64,000 nucleotides of DNA, from the IMG/VR virus record IMGVR_UViG_3300023210_000013, positions 51,582 through 115,581 of that record; one strand, written 5' to 3'. The DNA comes from a virus. Position numbers and translations under genes: made by a program. The notes under the pieces were generated by a model that was not told the DNA's origin, did not search any database, and worked only from the letters and a program-made list of their open reading frames with translations. This document shows positions 35,977 through 63,872 of this stretch, one piece after another. Each line of letters opens with the position of its first letter. Positions within the stretch are counted from its first letter, which is position 1.

Positions 35977-36178
35977 ATTTTTAATGTCAAAATTAAATTT
36001 TTTTTAAACAAAATACAAATATAAGATCCCCCCTTCTATTACAAGCAAATGTTGCCCCCGGTCCTCAGAAAGTTTTATGTATGGCATTGGTGAGAGGTGG
36101 TACTATTCAACTCCCCAGCAAAATTTTGCGGTTATGGTACCCCCGCTTCTGCGGTACCAACACTTAAATTATATCATT
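35977..36178 (+). promoter_or_regulatory. Divergent control region upstream of the early paralog pair
   Basis: This 202-nt spacer separates late (minus) from early (plus) transcription. It contains a T/A-rich stretch (35977-36022), a C-rich patch at 36025-36033, the 9-mer AAATGTTGC at 36047-36055 (repeated at 36688-36696 before the second paralog) and an inverted repeat. The inverted repeat consists of GGTACC at 36136-36141 and 36153-36158, 21 nt before the ATG at 36179. The hairpin may be an operator or a translation-control element. No core promoter could be assigned with confidence. Confidence 0.45.
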
Positions 36179-36469
36179 ATGTACTTTTACAAATTTACAA
36201 ACTCAAACAAAGGAATCGTTACAACTGAGCAACCTCTAACTGGTAGTGCTACCAAGAAGATCACCAAGGTTATTGGTGGTGTGGAAATGGAAGTCCTACA
36301 ACAACGTGATCAAATAGAAGGTCTCAAGTTTGGATTTACTGCTATAAGCCCAGACGTTGTGGCTCAAATGGACCTGAAGGTTGGTGATGAGTTGCCACTG
36401 GAACTGACAGACAAAGCTGTCAAAAACAGAGAGGGTGAAGAAATCCCAAATCTGTACTGGGCTCACTAA
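36179..36469 (+). CDS. Early protein, paralog A, 96 aa
   Basis: The ATG at 36179 (MYFYKFTNSNKGIVTT) aligns with the start of the second copy at 36729, so the longer upstream frame is not used. The protein is beta-rich and soluble, with a GDELPLELTDKAVKNREGEE segment and a C-terminal LYWAH. It shares most of its sequence with paralog B. Codons are visibly more G/C-rich than in neighbouring genes. As the first early gene it may act on the host. No family is recognised. Confidence 0.75.
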   Translation: MYFYKFTNSNKGIVTTEQPLTGSATKKITKVIGGVEMEVLQQRDQIEGLKFGFTAISPDVVAQMDLKVGDELPLELTDKAVKNREGEEIPNLYWAH

Positions 36470-36728
36470 GAGTCCCAATGTTAAAGCACCAAGTGTCAAA
36501 GCTTGGTGCAATAACAACAACAACAATGGGAAGGTGAAAGCTCCCATCCTTGTTGTCCCTCATGCTGCAGCCATTACTTATCTTTTAAAATTAAAGGCAT
36601 TGGTGATGTTCCCATGCCGCAGACATTAGCTATCTTTTAGCCCTGGAATAAGATCCCTCTCCCCCCCATTGATCCCTCTCCCCAGCTAAATGTTGCAATC
36701 AATTAATCATTTAAACTTGCATAAAATT
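36470..36728 (+). other. Intergenic region between the paralogs: hairpin and C-rich repeats
   Basis: GCACCAAG (36486-36493) and CTTGGTGC (36502-36509) form an 8-bp hairpin with no T-run, 17 nt after the stop, followed by an (ACA)n-like stretch. GATCCCTCTCCCC occurs twice around 36650-36683. The 9-mer AAATGTTGC is at 36688-36696. G+C is visibly above the surrounding sequence. It contains no convincing gene. Confidence 0.5.
36561..36639 (+). repeat. Imperfect 27-nt direct repeat, two copies
   Basis: Copies at 36561-36587 and 36613-36639 match at 23 of 27 positions. Each starts CATGC(T/C)GCAG and ends TATCTTTTA. The spacing between copy starts is 52 nt. They lie between the two early paralogs. 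Confidence 0.75.
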
Positions 36729-37004
36729 ATGACGTATTTTTACAAACTTACGCAGACTGGTAAAGGAATAGTAACCACTACTGCACCGTTGAACAAAACA
36801 ACGGAAATCAAAAATATTGGTGGAGTTGAAACTGAAGTAAGAGTTCAGAATCAAGATGTATCATTTGGCTTTACTGCTATATCAGCAGACACTGCCGCGC
36901 AGATGAACCTAGCAATAGGTGATGAACTGCCACTTGAAATCACAGATAAGCCTGTGAAAAACAAGGATGGTGAGGTAATACCCAACATGTTTTGGGCTCA
37001 CTAG
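36729..37004 (+). CDS. Early protein, paralog B, 91 aa
   Basis: This is a diverged tandem copy of the gene at 36179. Both open with a (M/T)YFYK(F/L)T motif, carry GIVTT, FGFTAIS and A-Q-M-(D/N)-L-x-(V/I)-GDELPLE, and end in WAH. Duplicated upstream motifs (AAATGTTGC, C-rich patches) show that the control region was copied as well. It is closed by a strong terminator at 37019-37058. Function is unknown. Tandem duplication of a first early gene suggests selection for dose or for two host targets. Confidence 0.75.
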   Translation: MTYFYKLTQTGKGIVTTTAPLNKTTEIKNIGGVETEVRVQNQDVSFGFTAISADTAAQMNLAIGDELPLEITDKPVKNKDGEVIPNMFWAH

Positions 37005-37058: not shown

Positions 37059-37313
37059 AAAACACACGTTGCACACTAAAGGTGACATCATATAACCCAT
37101 ATAAGCACACTTTAAGCAATGATATTAATTATCTTATCCATATATATAGATATAGCTATAAAGATCACTTAGGCAGAGCAAACTATTACATAGTAGTTGT
37201 TATCTCTCTCTATAGTATCTTATGTATCTCTTCTTATATGAATAGTATTATATTACCCGGAATATTACAACAGGCACATAGATATATACCTGTATAAACA
37301 TGGTTGGTCTAAT

Positions 37314-37469
37314 CCAGTGAGCTGCTGGCGTAAGAGAGAACTTACAGTAATCTAAACTCAACTAATAGAATAAGTGTAGCAAGACAAAATAAAGGCTAAG
37401 ACGTTAGTCATCCTACTGTCACTAGATGACAGCTTGTAAATGCCATGTCAGCAGGGATGCTACACTTAT
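37314..37469 (+). ncRNA. Putative structured RNA closed by a 12-bp helix
   Basis: ATAAGTGTAGCA (37370-37381) and TGCTACACTTAT (37458-37469) are perfect inverted repeats separated by 76 nt. Inside lie the hairpins GGCTAA/TTAGTC (37394-37409, one G-U, 4-nt loop) and CTGTCA/TGACAG (37416-37432, 5-nt loop), giving a multibranch fold. Just upstream are CCAG/CTGG (37314-37328) and GTAAG/CTTAC (37330-37345). No frame with gene-like character covers it, and no T-loop or CCA is present, so it is not a tRNA. The preceding 37059-37313 is A/T-rich with no clear gene. Confidence 0.6.
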
Positions 37470-37524
37470 ATCTATAACTCTTAATGGTTAACGTCAGATA
37501 CATGTATCAAATAGTTAATCAGTT

Positions 37525-37607
37525 ATATACTTTTGTGAATTAACAGTATACCTGGAACCCATCGTGGTGTAAAGGCAGACAGGTTGGGATACCCTACAAA
37601 AGTATAT
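37525..37607 (+). ncRNA. Second putative structured RNA closed by a 12-bp helix
   Basis: ATATACTTTTGT (37525-37536) and ACAAAAGTATAT (37596-37607) are perfect inverted repeats with a 59-nt interior. The interior can form CCTG/CAGG (37551-37554 with 37580-37583) and a short CCA/TGG hairpin. The right arm overlaps a copy of the promoter-like core GTATATTAT, so the repeat could instead be an operator around a promoter. It lies 48 nt before the ATG at 37655. Confidence 0.5.
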
Positions 37608-37610
37608 TAT
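37602..37610 (+). promoter_or_regulatory. Plus-strand copy of the promoter core GTATATTAT
   Basis: The 9-base core shared by the late elements occurs here on the plus strand, 45-53 nt upstream of the ATG at 37655, matching the spacing seen in the late block. Confidence 0.4.
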
Positions 37611-37654
37611 ATAATAACATCACCTAAAGCTGAAGAGCATTGTACTATCCTATT

Positions 37655-37870: not shown

Positions 37871-38057
37871 AACTATGCTATTAAGCATAACCGTATTCAT
37901 AATCACAGTAGTAATATTTAACACACTCGTATGGTATCTACAAGATACTTGGACATTCAAAGAATGCTTTGGCCATGGTGCAACAATAGGCTTCTCAGTT
38001 ATATTTGCTTGGATACCTGCTGGTATCGTAGGAAATGATTACTACAATCGTATTTAA
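37857..38057 (+). CDS. Small two-helix membrane protein, 66 aa
   Basis: One hydrophobic segment covers residues 8-28 (LLSITVFIITVVIFNTLVWY). A second hydrophobic stretch lies at residues 44-58, after a charged amphipathic region. The basic N-terminus (MVKTKTM) predicts a cytoplasmic N-terminus. Candidates are superinfection exclusion or host membrane modification. It directly precedes the long non-coding RNA-like region. Confidence 0.6.
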   Translation: MVKTKTMLLSITVFIITVVIFNTLVWYLQDTWTFKECFGHGATIGFSVIFAWIPAGIVGNDYYNRI

Positions 38058-38271
38058 AGAGAACACCCGTGAGGCTAGCGGGCGTGTTAGAGTGTCACGT
38101 AGATACACTTAAGAGGATAGCTTGTCAGCTTGGCTCTGCATATGTTAGGACTATAGGTCTGTTGTAGGTTTGACAACCCTGAACCATATGTTGATTTGCT
38201 AGTTTAACATAAACTAGAATCGTCAACCGGGGAAACGGTCAAGTAGAGGTAACCAAGCTCTACATTTTTTT
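38058..38271 (+). ncRNA. Putative non-coding RNA with terminator, about 210 nt
   Basis: Start and end are estimates. The stretch has no gene-like frame but is full of local helices: AACAC/GTGTT (38062-38088), AGTGT/ACACT (38091-38109), GTTGT/ACAAC (38161-38177), CTAGTTTA/TAAACTAG (38199-38217, 3-nt loop) and ACCG/CGGT (38226-38239). It ends in a terminator hairpin with seven Ts. Two CATATG palindromes (38139-38144 and 38185-38190) could pair across the GTTGT hairpin. It could be a stand-alone RNA or the 5' part of a longer one with the next element. Confidence 0.6.
38243..38271 (+). terminator. Intrinsic terminator of the first RNA unit
   Basis: GTAGAG (38243-38248) and CTCTAC (38258-38263) form a 6-bp stem with a 9-nt loop, followed by A and seven Ts (38265-38271). 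Confidence 0.75.
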
Positions 38272-38286
38272 AACAATATTATAAAT

Positions 38287-38768
38287 AACTAGTCAATAAA
38301 AGCAGTAGTGGCTACCTGCAGATAAACAATGTTAAGTTGAAGGTGGAATAGTTAGACTATTCATAAGCCCATGTGTATGTAAACTGCATACAATAGACTC
38401 ATCATCGTGGCCTTGACTAGTTTTCTATTAAAGTCTAAAAGCAAAGATAACCTCACTTGTAAAACAAGGGTAGATACCATAACAATTGGTTGAGTGAGTA
38501 AAGAATCAGGGAAATAAGGTTATGCGTTAAAACCTGAATGATTGCTATAGACTAAAAATACGTGTTTAGGTAATTCTAAACTAGTGTGACACACATGAAG
38601 TGAAGTAGGTTAATTACCTATAGTGTCTAATCAACCAATGAGTATGTTGGTAGGTGTTGGTCTCACCTGATAATCAAATGACTTATTCCTAACTATGTAA
38701 AGCAATAATGTAATTCTCATAGGACAACCGTGCCAGTTGAAGTTGGATAAAATAGACTGGCTTTTTTT
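38287..38768 (+). ncRNA. Putative large ornate RNA, about 480 nt
   Basis: No gene-like frame is present, but at least three closed domains are. Domain 1 is bounded by AACTAGTCAA (38287-38296) and TTGACTAGTT (38413-38422) and contains GCAGTAG/CTAcCTGC, GAATAG/CTATTC (38346-38362) and TGTATG/CATACA (38374-38392). Domain 2 is bounded by AGTCTA/TAGACT and GCAA/TTGC (38432-38444 with 38542-38553) and contains ATAACCT/AGGTTAT (38447-38453, 38517-38523) and CTTGT/ACAAG. Domain 3 is bounded by TAGGTAATT/AATTACCTA (38567-38575, 38612-38620). Two more hairpins follow, ACCAA/TTGGT (38634-38651) and AGGTG/CACCT (38652-38668). It ends at a terminator. Size and density recall the GOLLD/ROOL class of phage RNAs. 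Confidence 0.6.
38732..38768 (+). terminator. Terminator at the end of the large RNA region
   Basis: GCCAGT (38732-38737) and ACTGGC (38756-38761) form a 6-bp stem with an 18-nt loop, followed by seven Ts (38762-38768). It lies 26 nt before the next gene. Confidence 0.65.
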
Positions 38769-38793
38769 ACAAACCACTTAACAAAATCATATC

Positions 38794-38982
38794 ATGGATA
38801 AATTTACTAGAATTAGCGTACACATTGCTGCTTATTTTGTAGCATTCAATCTATTTAGAGTTGCACACCACTCATCAGGAGAAGGTAACTGGCAAATCTC
38901 TATTATGTTCTTCGTATTAGGCGTATTCACAATGTATATACCGTCAATGCTAACAGCAAAAGAAAAAAAAAATAATCACTAA
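38794..38982 (+). CDS. Small membrane protein, 62 aa
   Basis: Two hydrophobic segments (about residues 9-23 and 35-54, for example ISIMFFVLGVFTMYIPSMLT) are linked by a polar His/Ser/Gly loop, and the protein ends in a Lys/Asn-rich tail. The topology suggests a hairpin inner-membrane protein. It is one of four tiny genes here with membrane or export features, a typical composition for early superinfection-exclusion or host-takeover clusters. Confidence 0.6.
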   Translation: MDKFTRISVHIAAYFVAFNLFRVAHHSSGEGNWQISIMFFVLGVFTMYIPSMLTAKEKKNNH

Positions 38983-39494: not shown

Positions 39495-39520
39495 CCAATT
39501 AATATCTTAATATACACTTT

Positions 39521-39646
39521 ATGAAAAATTTAAAAATCAAATTTGGCTACGCTGAATTCATTGGGCTTGGAATAGCTTGGCAGTATGATAGAGCAGCTAT
39601 CATAATACCTTTTCTTATGATTGAAATCATATGGAAAAAGAGATAA
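39521..39646 (+). CDS. Tiny membrane-associated protein, 41 aa
   Basis: A frame from ATG 39521 encodes MKNLKIKFGYAEFIGLGIAW followed by a second hydrophobic stretch (AAIIIPFLMIEIIW) and a KKR end. Basic ends flanking a hydrophobic hairpin suggest an inner-membrane peptide. It is short, but it continues the spacing pattern of its neighbours. Confidence 0.5.
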   Translation: MKNLKIKFGYAEFIGLGIAWQYDRAAIIIPFLMIEIIWKKR

Positions 39647-39748
39647 TAACTATCAGACTTAAAAACAAACACGCACTATAGATCGTACTAACAATACCAG
39701 TACTTCTATATCTTATATAATGATCTTACTACTGTGGGATCATAAATG

Positions 39749-39809
39749 TTAAACATGGTGATGTATGTTTAAGTGGTGAATGGATCTTACCTGGGAATTC
39801 CTGGGTAAG
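39749..39809 (+). promoter_or_regulatory. Double-hairpin leader before the 182-aa gene
   Basis: TTAAACAT (39749-39756) and ATGTTTAA (39765-39772) form an 8-bp hairpin. CTTACC (39786-39791) and GGTAAG (39804-39809) form a second hairpin containing the palindrome GGAATTCC. Both lie in the 188-nt gap before the ATG at 39835, the second ending 25 nt from it. A structured 5' leader, a processing site or a short RNA are possible. Confidence 0.45.
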
Positions 39810-39834
39810 GTTGCATTCTTTTATAAAAGAAATT

Positions 39835-40844: not shown

Positions 40845-41123
40845 ATGATTTACCAATTACCAAATGGACGTATAATAGAACTATCAGTGGAGCAATTCCT
40901 AGATCTAAATGATACAGAACTTAAAGACCTTAATGGTTTAAGTACTGCATACAGTCATGAGTGTGGTAATCCTTTCTATAACTTATTTTGTAAAACAACA
41001 GATGACAAAGAAATCACTATGGTTGAAACTCTTCTAGAAGATGAAGAATTCTCCCATGATTTATTTGATGTTGATGTACAAGAAAAGCTAGATGATGATT
41101 ACTTTCACAGAGATGACACATAA
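40845..41123 (+). CDS. Acidic hypothetical protein, 92 aa
   Basis: The protein is soluble, with an acidic C-terminus (DVDVQEKLDDDYFHRDDT) and two cysteines (HECGNPFYNLFC). No domain is recognised. It follows a 114-nt A/T-rich gap without clear signals. The acidic character would fit a DNA-mimic or inhibitor, but nothing specific supports that. Confidence 0.6.
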   Translation: MIYQLPNGRIIELSVEQFLDLNDTELKDLNGLSTAYSHECGNPFYNLFCKTTDDKEITMVETLLEDEEFSHDLFDVDVQEKLDDDYFHRDDT

Positions 41124-51367: not shown

Positions 51368-51844
51368 ATGAAATGGTTTATACCAGGTAATGTTCCAAGT
51401 TCAAAAAATGGACGTAGATGGACAGGAAAGTACTTTATAGCTAGTAAAGCTACTATGACTTATAGAAAAGATACAAAATCTTACTATGAGGATTTTGCCA
51501 CACCTTTTAAAAAAGTATTAGCAAAATATGAATTTCCAGTAAAAATTGGTTTTACATTTCACAGAGGGAGCCGTCATAAGTTTGACTATTTAAATCCTGC
51601 ACAAACGGTGCAAGATGATATGGTTAAAGCAGGGTGGATTGAAGATGATAATGCTGAATTTATGATTCCAGCATTTGAACAATACATATATGACAAAGAA
51701 AACCCTGGAGTATGGATAGAAATATTAAAAGAAAATGAATTAAAAAAAGATGGACTCAAAGGACAAAAAAGCGGAACAAAAAATAAAGACAATTCTAAAT
51801 CTTCTGAAAGCAAAAGACCAAGGAATACAGGAAATAAAAATTAA
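51368..51844 (+). CDS. RusA-type Holliday junction resolvase
   Basis: The start MKWFIPGNVPSSKNGRRW is the typical RusA opening (P-x-x-K-x-R). The catalytic acidic residues are in KFDYLNPAQTVQDDMVKAGW and the following IEDD, near residues 73-97. The core domain ends at about residue 122. The last 35 residues are a lysine/serine-rich extension overlapping the next gene by 95 bases in another frame. It resolves four-way junctions from recombination-dependent replication before packaging. Confidence 0.85.
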   Translation: MKWFIPGNVPSSKNGRRWTGKYFIASKATMTYRKDTKSYYEDFATPFKKVLAKYEFPVKIGFTFHRGSRHKFDYLNPAQTVQDDMVKAGWIEDDNAEFMIPAFEQYIYDKENPGVWIEILKENELKKDGLKGQKSGTKNKDNSKSSESKRPRNTGNKN

Positions 51845-59583: not shown

Positions 59584-61590
59584 ATGAATCATTGGGTAAT
59601 GGACTATGAAACATTGTATGATTGTTTTACAGCCGTGTTTGAACACTACAAAACTAAGGAAACTAAAGTTTTTGTAATTAGCAGGTTAAGAAATGATCAG
59701 TCAGAGTTTTTAAGTTTCTTAAAACAAAACATAAATAAAAAAGAGTGGCATATATCCTATAACGGATTAGCATTTGATGCGCAAGTCACTCATTATATAT
59801 TAGATAATGTTGATAGTTGGAAAGACCAAGAAGGTTTAGATCTTGATGGTCATTTAACAGCTAACATAATTTACAAGTTTGCTCAGAGAACAATAACAAA
59901 AAGTAACAATAGAGAGTTTGCTGATTATCCTGAATGGAAAATGCAAATAGGTCAAATAGATTTATTTAAAATGCATCATTGGGACAACCCGGCTAAACGT
60001 TCTAGTCTTAAGTGGATTCAGTATAGCATGGATTGGGATAACATTCTTGATATGCCTATTCACCATGGTTCAGAAATACGTAGTCAAGAACAATTAAATA
60101 CTGTACTAGAATACAATATCAATGATGTTAAATCAACTAAAGAAATTTTTAGTAGATCTACTGACTTGATAAAGTTAAGGAAAGAATTGACTGCTACATA
60201 TGATATAAATCTGTTTAGTGCTTCAGAACCTAGAATTAGTAAAGAACTCTTTGCTTACTACATGTCTGATAAGTTAAACATAAACAAAAGAGATCTTAAA
60301 AAAATGAGAACTTTTAGAAAAAGTATAAAGTTTAAAGACATTATACTTGATTATATAAAGTTTGAATCTCCTGAGTTTAAAGGTTTACTTGAAAGGTTTA
60401 AAGCTGTAGAGTTAAACCCTGATAATTTAAAAGGTGCATTTAAGTACTCTTTAGATTACAAAGGTGTTAAGACTCATTTTGGTGTAGGTGGTGTTCATGG
60501 TGCAAGAAAATCAGGTATCTATGAATCAGATGATGATAATATAATTATGTCATCAGATGTTACTTCCTTCTATCCCAATTTGGTAATTAGAAATAAGTGG
60601 GCACCCGGTCACTTTCCTGTAGATGAATTTTGCAATCAGTATGAATGGTTCTTTGAAGAGCGTAAGAAGATACCTAAGAGCAATCCAATGAATTATGTAT
60701 ATAAGATTATACTAAATTCTACTTTTGGTCTTAGCAATGATGTAAATAGCTTCTTTTATGATCCTGAGCTTACCATGCGCATTACAATTAACGGTCAACT
60801 TAGTTTGATGATGTTATATGAAATGTTAATGGAAAAAATACCTGGAGCAATTCCATTAATGCAAAATACTGATGGTGTAGAAATCAAAATACCTAAAGAG
60901 TATAAAGATGACTACCTTGGTATATGTAAACAATGGGAAGATATCACTAACTTACAGTTAGAACATGATGAATATCAAAAGTTAGTGTTGGGTGATGTAA
61001 ACAATTATATAGGGTTAAACAACTGGAAACAAGTTGATATGAGTATTTGGCGTGATGTTAAAGCTAAAAACCCACATTACAAGTACAAAGTTGATGGAGA
61101 TAAGTTTTTCTTTGCTCCTGCTAAAATGAAAGGTAGATATGACTTTTTTAACTTAGCATTGCATAAAAACAAATCTAAGTTGATTATACCTAAAGCTGTA
61201 TACAATTATTTTATACATGATATATTACCAGAAATTTACTTGAATTCTAATAAAAATATCTTAGATTATTGTATAGGTAGTAAGTCCAAAGGTGATTGGA
61301 AACAAGTAGCTAGAAATATTAAAGATGGAGCTTTTCATGAAGAAGAGTTACAAAAAATAAATAGGTACTATATTTCTAATAACGGAGTTAAAATCATAAA
61401 AGTAAACAAAACAGATGCAAGAGAAATTCAGTTAGAAGCTGGTAAATGGATCCAAAAAGTGTTTAACAATATGAAAATAGAAACGGCCTGGGACAAGTAT
61501 GATATAAACAAGGGGTATTATTTAACTGCTATTGAACAAGAAATCAATAACATTTTAGAAGTACCTAGTAATCAATTAACATTATTCTAA
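59584..61590 (+). CDS. Family B DNA polymerase with 3'-5' exonuclease
   Basis: This 668-residue replicative polymerase has exonuclease motifs DYET (residues 7-10), YNGLAFD near 59 and YNINDV near 178. The polymerase motifs are SSDVTSFYPNL near 323 (motif A), KIILNSTFGLSND near 373 (motif B, K...NS.(Y/F)G) and MQNTDGVE near 424 (motif C). Motif C reads N-T-D instead of the usual D-T-D and keeps the essential second Asp. The enzyme is short for family B, with little room for extra thumb insertions. No separate clamp gene is seen in the window. The stop overlaps the PhoH start by one base. Confidence 0.9.
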   Translation: MNHWVMDYETLYDCFTAVFEHYKTKETKVFVISRLRNDQSEFLSFLKQNINKKEWHISYNGLAFDAQVTHYILDNVDSWKDQEGLDLDGHLTANIIYKFAQRTITKSNNREFADYPEWKMQIGQIDLFKMHHWDNPAKRSSLKWIQYSMDWDNILDMPIHHGSEIRSQEQLNTVLEYNINDVKSTKEIFSRSTDLIKLRKELTATYDINLFSASEPRISKELFAYYMSDKLNINKRDLKKMRTFRKSIKFKDIILDYIKFESPEFKGLLERFKAVELNPDNLKGAFKYSLDYKGVKTHFGVGGVHGARKSGIYESDDDNIIMSSDVTSFYPNLVIRNKWAPGHFPVDEFCNQYEWFFEERKKIPKSNPMNYVYKIILNSTFGLSNDVNSFFYDPELTMRITINGQLSLMMLYEMLMEKIPGAIPLMQNTDGVEIKIPKEYKDDYLGICKQWEDITNLQLEHDEYQKLVLGDVNNYIGLNNWKQVDMSIWRDVKAKNPHYKYKVDGDKFFFAPAKMKGRYDFFNLALHKNKSKLIIPKAVYNYFIHDILPEIYLNSNKNILDYCIGSKSKGDWKQVARNIKDGAFHEEELQKINRYYISNNGVKIIKVNKTDAREIQLEAGKWIQKVFNNMKIETAWDKYDINKGYYLTAIEQEINNILEVPSNQLTLF

Positions 61591-62249
61591 TGGCACAAAA
61601 CGTAGAGAAAAAAGCTCCAAAAGGTTCAGTGAAGTTTACAATAACTCTTTCAGAAGAGCAAAAAGCAGCAAAGGATGCTATATTAAAGCATCCTTTTAAT
61701 TTTATAGTGGGTAATGCAGGTAGTGGTAAAACACTACTTGCAACTCAAGTAGCTCTTGATCAATTTTTTAAACGGAATTACAACAAAATTATCATTACAA
61801 GACCTACAGTGTCTACTGAAGATAATGGTTTTCTTCCTGGTTCAGAAAAAGAAAAAATGGAGCCTTGGTTAGTTCCTATTAGATCTAATATGAGGAAGGT
61901 TTATAACAAACCTGCCATACTAGAAAAAATGGAAAATGAAGAGAAGATTGAATTAGTATCTCTTGCACACTTTAGAGGTAGAACATTTAATAACTCAATA
62001 GTTATTATAGATGAGTTTCAAAATTTAACAAGATCACAACTAGCAATGGTTCTTGGAAGATTAGGTAAAGATTCAACAATGATGCTATGTGGAGATAATC
62101 AACAGATTGATTTAAAAGATAGAAATTATTCTGCTATTAATGAAGTAGCAAAAATAATTGGATCTAAATACGTTAACAAGATTATTTTAACAGATAACCA
62201 CAGACACGAGTCACTAATAGAAGTATTAGAATTATTAAAAAACAATTAA
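61590..62249 (+). CDS. phoH: PhoH-like ATPase
   Basis: The 219-residue protein has the PhoH core: Walker A NAGSGKTLLA near residue 45, an IITRPTVSTEDNGFLPGSEK segment near residue 68 and Walker B VIIDEFQNLT near residue 138. The motif MMLCGDNQQIDL near 167 follows. PhoH is a P-loop ATPase common in phages, with RNA-related helicase or nuclease roles suggested for the family. It sits between polymerase and GroEL, with 1-base and 3-base junctions, so it is cotranscribed with both. Confidence 0.9.
   Translation: MAQNVEKKAPKGSVKFTITLSEEQKAAKDAILKHPFNFIVGNAGSGKTLLATQVALDQFFKRNYNKIIITRPTVSTEDNGFLPGSEKEKMEPWLVPIRSNMRKVYNKPAILEKMENEEKIELVSLAHFRGRTFNNSIVIIDEFQNLTRSQLAMVLGRLGKDSTMMLCGDNQQIDLKDRNYSAINEVAKIIGSKYVNKIILTDNHRHESLIEVLELLKNN

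Positions 62250-63872
<1,623 letters not shown>

Follow-up and report, generated by a model that had tools for sequence, protein, structure and literature searches.

The window analysed here is a stretch of 64,000 nucleotides taken from a 115.6-kb virus record in IMG/VR (IMGVR_UViG_3300023210_000013, positions 51,582 to 115,581), and the locus of interest is a gap at 38058-38793 that appears to encode structured RNAs. The source virus is an environmental crAss-like phage. Its terminase, an ordinary large terminase, has a distant likeness (~24% identity) to the terminases of crAss-like, Flavobacterium and Cellulophaga phages. Structural genes occupy the minus strand up to ~36 kb, and the early and replication genes lie on the plus strand beyond this point. 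The gap, of 736 bp, contains no open reading frame (ORF) of 60 amino acids or more and is flanked by a small membrane-protein gene ending at 38057 and a gene starting at 38794. The original prediction, made from the letters of the window, read the block 38058-38768 as an ornate phage RNA in the early plus-strand region, with no protein-coding frame and with two terminator-bounded units of about 210 and 480 nt. Homologues of the block likewise lack a frame that stays open across them, and the proposed split fits the boundaries of the modules described below, namely RA for the first unit and B1, B2 and CD for the second.

Related phage loci in IMG/VR, designated by L-numbers, were collected by scanning with an alignment built on the protein product of 40845-41123, which yielded 80 loci, and by a pattern scan for the invariant CGTCAACCGGGNAAACGGT of RA, which yielded 37 stretches, several of them also holding B1 or CD. 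Scans with patterns of B1, CD and the upstream module K provided extra loci. Several alignments rest in part on motif-selected loci; six RA sequences (L014, L016, L017, L076, L082 and L089) came from the protein-based scan and so were not motif-selected. The covariation figures given here count sequences rather than events, and the E-values of models built in this analysis are rough. Compared at the DNA level, the block is a mosaic: 38050-38270 (RA) recurs in eight loci at 69-74% identity, 38276-38429 (B1) is 87% identical in L065 and 38442-38548 (B2) is 92.5% identical in L088.

RA (38064-38271, plus strand) is predicted to be a multi-helix RNA of ~205 nt with its own terminator. Among 14 distinct homologous sequences its 49 pairs were paired in 97.8% of cells, and 14 pairs showed double changes. 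The covariation score was 0.196 against 0.119 in shuffles, with none of 500 shuffles matching it, and pairing fell to 31-42% when the partners were slid as a control. A long-range pairing of GGUUUGAC with GUCAACC was also considered, and a local UUGAC/GUCAA helix was kept instead. The letters of the long-range pairing are invariant, so it yields no covariation signal.

The last ~55 nt of RA form a 3′ domain (38218-38275, plus strand), in which a hairpin with the invariant CGUCAACCGGGNAAACGGU (38221-38239) is followed by a terminator hairpin. The first hairpin pairs ACCG with CGGU around a GGNAAA loop that can be read as a GNAA tetraloop closed by G.A, and its single variable base would fit the N of a GNAA-type loop. 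In an alignment of 19 distinct sequences the second hairpin covaried at 6 of 6 pairs (31 double-change cells, 0/500 shuffles), and the first hairpin never varied. The first hairpin is held at the sequence level, since a scan that left its stem free recovered 12 loci of which only one was new. The first terminator (38243-38271, plus strand) consists of the covarying stem GUAGAG/CUCUAC (38243-38248/38258-38263), the loop GUAACCAAG, conserved across homologues as GGUAAYCAG-like, and a T7 run.

The 3′ domain of RA was also found in otherwise unrelated phage RNAs, where it caps entirely different 5′ parts (L094, L102, L110, L142, L105/L120 and others). These distant RNAs share ACAACCAGYCACUGUA. They also have an apparent pseudoknot between a hairpin loop and the strand just before (C)GUCAACC (UCUUUCUG/CAGAAAGA, GUCGUUUG/CAAACGAC and AUUUCAUC/GAUGAAAU), of which the arm was clearly above shuffles in L110 and L142 only. 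Genes for tRNAs occur in the same stretch as the distant domain in L094, L102, L106, L110 and L142; the large phage RNAs GOLLD and ROOL often adjoin tRNA genes (PMC12286853). In L114 a Pistol ribozyme (988-1042, Rfam RF02679) lies ~0.9 kb upstream of the domain.

The second unit begins with B1 (38287-38422, plus strand), a domain closed by a 10-bp helix (38287-38296/38413-38422), which had been predicted and is exact in the sequence. Inside it are a helix GGCUAC/GUGGCC and hairpins. Copies of B1 were found in L065, L104/L122, L098, L136 and L137, and in L137 pairs of the closing helix change on both sides (G-C to A-U and C-G to U-A). A minus-strand RNA was considered and rejected: B1 folds better on the minus strand (z ~-3.5), but its covariation term is positive on the plus strand and negative on the minus, and the terminators of its neighbours are on the plus strand. 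B2 (38441-38548, plus strand) has its 92.5% identical copy at a different gene slot in L088 (5434-5540). It is also present in L145, and its first ~32 nt stand directly behind B1 in L136.

CD (38554-38768, plus strand; 10 aligned copies) consists of a 5′ half termed C (38555-38632), a middle subdomain and a conserved 3′ end with its own terminator. In nine distinct sequences the 5′ half showed double changes at 7 of its 19 pairs (0/500 shuffles). The original prediction had proposed a 9-bp closing helix between 38567-38575 and 38612-38620. This complement is exact, but the better interpretation is that the loops of two plus-strand hairpins kiss: 38572-38575, in GUUUAG-GUAAUU-CUAAAC, pairs with 38612-38615, in UAGGU-UAAUU-ACCUA. 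The four pairs of the contact were paired in 97.2% of cells, with one compensatory change. Between its constant ends, CD has a middle part of which three or more alternative versions exist, so swapping also occurs below the module level; L146 and L144, for instance, share both ends and differ in the middle. The second terminator (38732-38768, plus strand) has the stem GCCAGU/ACUGGC (hairpin 38732-38761), an 18-nt conserved loop UGAAGUUGGAUAAAAUAG and a T7 run, and in L119 a stem pair changes from C-G to U-A with the loop retained. Both predicted terminators are present; their loops, longer than 8 nt, hide them from a simple terminator scan.

One claim of the original prediction failed. Judged from its single sequence, the block does not show dense structure beyond chance, as its z-scores against shuffles were -0.95 (38058-38272) and -1.03 (38273-38769). 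Since the plus strand folds little better than shuffles, this sequence alone could not settle the matter, and the reality of the RNA locus rests on comparison rather than on folding energy. The proposed check for covariation in homologous loci gave compensatory changes in both RA and CD. Chance structure or decayed coding sequence would agree with such z-scores. It is already contradicted by the covariation in three alignments (RA, its 3′ domain and CD), by the near-identity of modules across diverged phages and by the lack of a conserved frame in homologues, and we regard it as exceedingly improbable.

The original prediction also missed the mosaic make-up of the RNA, whose exchangeable modules are present upstream as well (37271-37611) and, reordered, in other phages. 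On the plus strand of the window these are K (37271-37394), which is 87-92% identical in L016, L101, L107 and L130 and also occurs in L076; F (37398-37478), 87-93% identical in L016, L101 and L119; and E (37526-37611), which is closed by a 12-bp helix and is 100% identical over 86 bp in L016 and 93% identical in L122. They are preceded by R0 (37068-37266), a noncoding element conserved in 56 distinct related-phage sequences with near-invariant ATATAGCTA and TACCCGCAAT. We do not claim R0 as a structured RNA, as it looks sequence-conserved, and leader-, promoter- or origin-like, rather than covarying. A leader resembling TAAAGCTGAAGAGCATTGTACTA recurs directly before small early ORFs, in the window (37625-37650) and in L119 (~1303-1325 and ~1733-1757). 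The largest array was found in L104, where a stretch of ~1.1 kb without convincing genes (370-1480) holds the further modules H, H2, I, J and M together with B1, E and the RA 3′ domain.

In the window the order is R0-K-F-E, two genes, and RA-B1-B2-CD. Elsewhere we found R0-K-F-E..RA (L016), R0-K-F..RA (L101), R0-K-G-RA-CD (L093, L107, L117 and L132, with L133 sharing this order from K on), R0..G-RA (L123, L113 and L125), CD..G-F..RA (L119 and L121), H-H2-B1-I-J-E-M-RA3′ (L104 and L122), H-B1-I-J (L098), R0-B1 (L065 and L136, in the latter continuing into B2), R0-B2 (L088), K-R0-CD (L130), CD-I..B2 (L145) and RA-R0-K (L076). B1 in L065 and B2 in L088 fill the same slot behind the conserved R0. 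Within each locus all module copies are on one strand. Assembly artefacts are unlikely for recurring junctions, because the same junctions appear in other contigs: RA-CD (L093, L107, L117, L132 and L133), B1-B2 (L136) and K-F-E (L016). Singletons such as B2-CD could still be artefacts.

Between phages whose core genes share only 52-73% nucleotide identity, the copies of K, F, E, B1 and B2 are conserved at 87-100%. Against L016, E is 100% and K and F are 91% identical (core genes 65-73%); against L088, B2 is 92.5% identical (genes 53-69%); and against L107, CD is 88% and K 89% identical (genes 55-61%). The exceptions are RA, at only ~72% everywhere, and CD in L119 and L130 (65-66%). Empty sites were sought in 28 distinct loci, using the distance from the membrane-protein gene stop to the next ORF start. 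Of the 19 loci without RA, 18 had the next ORF start between -48 and +25 nt relative to the stop, the exception being L018 (+325). In the seven loci with RA or G-RA directly behind the membrane-protein gene it started at +229 to +737 nt. The same downstream gene stands at +25 in L077 and at +230 and +233 in L082 and L089. RA is located elsewhere, not behind the membrane-protein gene, in L017 and L125. Shared modules, reshuffled order and empty sites show, at the level of sequence comparison, that the domains have been exchanged by recombination among phages of this lineage.

A scan of the window with Rfam 15 returned no family at threshold and, at E ≤ 5, only two chance-level matches to unrelated families. 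The scan of the relatives gave, at threshold, only tRNAs and the Pistol ribozyme of the distant L114. The suggested membership in GOLLD, ROOL or OLE was thus not borne out: GOLLD had no match in the window at the gathering threshold or locally at E ≤ 5, nor in the relatives scanned, ROOL had none in the window or the relatives scanned, and OLE had none in the window. Group I/II intron and known ribozyme models did not match in the window, and neither tRNA nor tmRNA was detected there. Annotated phages and plasmids gave no match to the block or to the motif beyond short chance hits, and no earlier description of the modules was found in the literature searched. The RNA classes appear new, because no module matched Rfam 15 and no publication found describes them.

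GOLLD and ROOL exemplify large phage RNAs whose existence is established but still unexplained. The present RNAs appear to be of this kind, with domain shuffling as a new property. As in GOLLD, a conserved 3′ region is combined with a variable 5′ region (the RA 3′ domain on unrelated 5′ parts), and several distant RNAs with this domain lie near tRNA genes. Unlike GOLLD, of which many members exceed 800 nt, RA is ~205 nt and B1-CD ~480 nt, with only the L104 array reaching ~1.1 kb, and the domains are exchanged as cassettes. The pRNA of phage phi29 is a phage-encoded structured RNA that uses loop-loop contacts; these contacts are in common, but the present modules lack an Rfam match and the window phage has an ordinary large terminase. 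ROOL resembles them as a phage or prophage RNA with pseudoknots and kissing loops, but its model does not match here and ROOL env-120, of 659 nt, forms nanocages (PMC12286853). RNA anti-CRISPRs (Racrs) are small RNAs by which phages act on the defence of the host (PMC10651486); Racrs mimic CRISPR repeats, and the present modules are multi-helix domains of 80-215 nt.

We suggest that the locus would produce two early plus-strand RNAs, RNA-1 (RA, ~205 nt) and RNA-2 (B1-B2-CD, ~480 nt), each ending in its own intrinsic terminator and each assembled from independently folding domains exchanged by recombination. They would act as structured RNAs and not as messages. For the combination of RNA identity, plus strand, two-transcript layout and domain exchange we estimate a probability of roughly 0.72; structure and modularity by themselves are highly probable. 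The strand is indicated by both terminators, by the co-orientation of module copies and by the covariation of B1. We further infer that the transcripts are separate and early. Their patchy distribution, the exchange itself, the early position and the conservation of exposed loops suggest that they may act in trans shortly after infection starts, through binding of host factors such as an RNA-binding protein, a nuclease or an RNA-sensing defence component. Swappable domains might then determine which target is bound, and a common function, for example stability or a shared partner, might come from the invariant 3′ domain with its hairpin and looped terminator. The early position among small patchy genes would fit takeover or counter-defence, although trans action on a host factor is a tentative proposal. 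Several points weigh against the overall interpretation. Copies of B2, K, F and E are too few or too alike for covariation; folding energies are unremarkable (z ~-1 for the block on the plus strand, with homologue means of -0.6 for RA, -1.85 for B1 and -1.4 for CD); the RNAs are known here from sequence alone, and the host target is conjectural. In addition, the exchange with L016 may partly represent one longer tract, because the membrane-protein gene that lies between E and RA shows 94% identity as well.

The modules could instead be cis-acting, as structured leaders, processing sites or 3′ untranslated-region elements of an early polycistronic message that tune nearby small genes. In several phages RA indeed begins within ~10 nt of a gene stop, and its end is a terminator; R0-K-F-E precede a gene. 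However, in loci of the L093 type R0-K-G-RA-CD extend over ~850 nt in which no gene is convincing, the same module adjoins different genes in different phages, and the terminator loops are conserved in sequence beyond the needs of a terminator; we find this explanation rather unlikely. The kissing loops in CD, the GNAA-like loop with its variable N, the conserved 3′ part with variable 5′ parts and the tRNA neighbourhood of several distant RNAs would suit an RNA-only scaffold, a smaller modular analogue of GOLLD and ROOL in which kissing loops and tetraloop contacts would hold homo- or hetero-oligomers together. Such oligomers are a sequence-based proposal, and with modules far shorter than GOLLD or ROOL and no Rfam match to either we judge the scaffold unlikely.

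It is improbable that the modules are selfish short elements, that is small mobile elements (intron-, ribozyme- or miniature inverted-repeat transposable element-like) spreading without serving the phage. Such elements would explain why the modules have discrete ends, stay highly identical in diverged phages and are matched by empty sites, and also the Pistol ribozyme near one distant 3′-domain locus. Against them, the modules are invariably co-oriented and mostly share one early locus, several recur as pairs no more than a few nt apart, and no common ends were seen among them (target-site duplications were not searched for). Under the proposed trans-acting RNAs, it is possible, though doubtful, that phages of this lineage maintain, at a single early locus, a recombining collection of nine or more structured RNA domains, from which counter-defence or takeover RNAs are assembled with a 3′ platform shared across distant phages. 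RNA domains here behave like protein domains: they can be separated, pass between diverged phages, change their order and are attached to a common 3′ end. Should they indeed be directed against the host, they would form the RNA equivalent of anti-defence gene islands. The catalogue of modules provides clean natural experiments, in which the block is present or absent at one gene junction, together with alignments from which covariance models can be built.

Other features of the window were recorded. Two paralogous small early proteins (36077-36469 and 36690-37004) adjoin the point of divergent transcription, and a further gene-poor stretch (39498-39811) has conserved DNA in ~11 distinct sequences. 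A GroEL-like chaperonin gene (62253-63872) follows directly on a PhoH-like gene (61590-62249); the two assignments come from visual inspection of the translations only. A contig of the same phage lineage (L092, WLWP01000004.1) lies inside a metagenome-assembled genome named Pseudomonadales and is likely to be misbinned.
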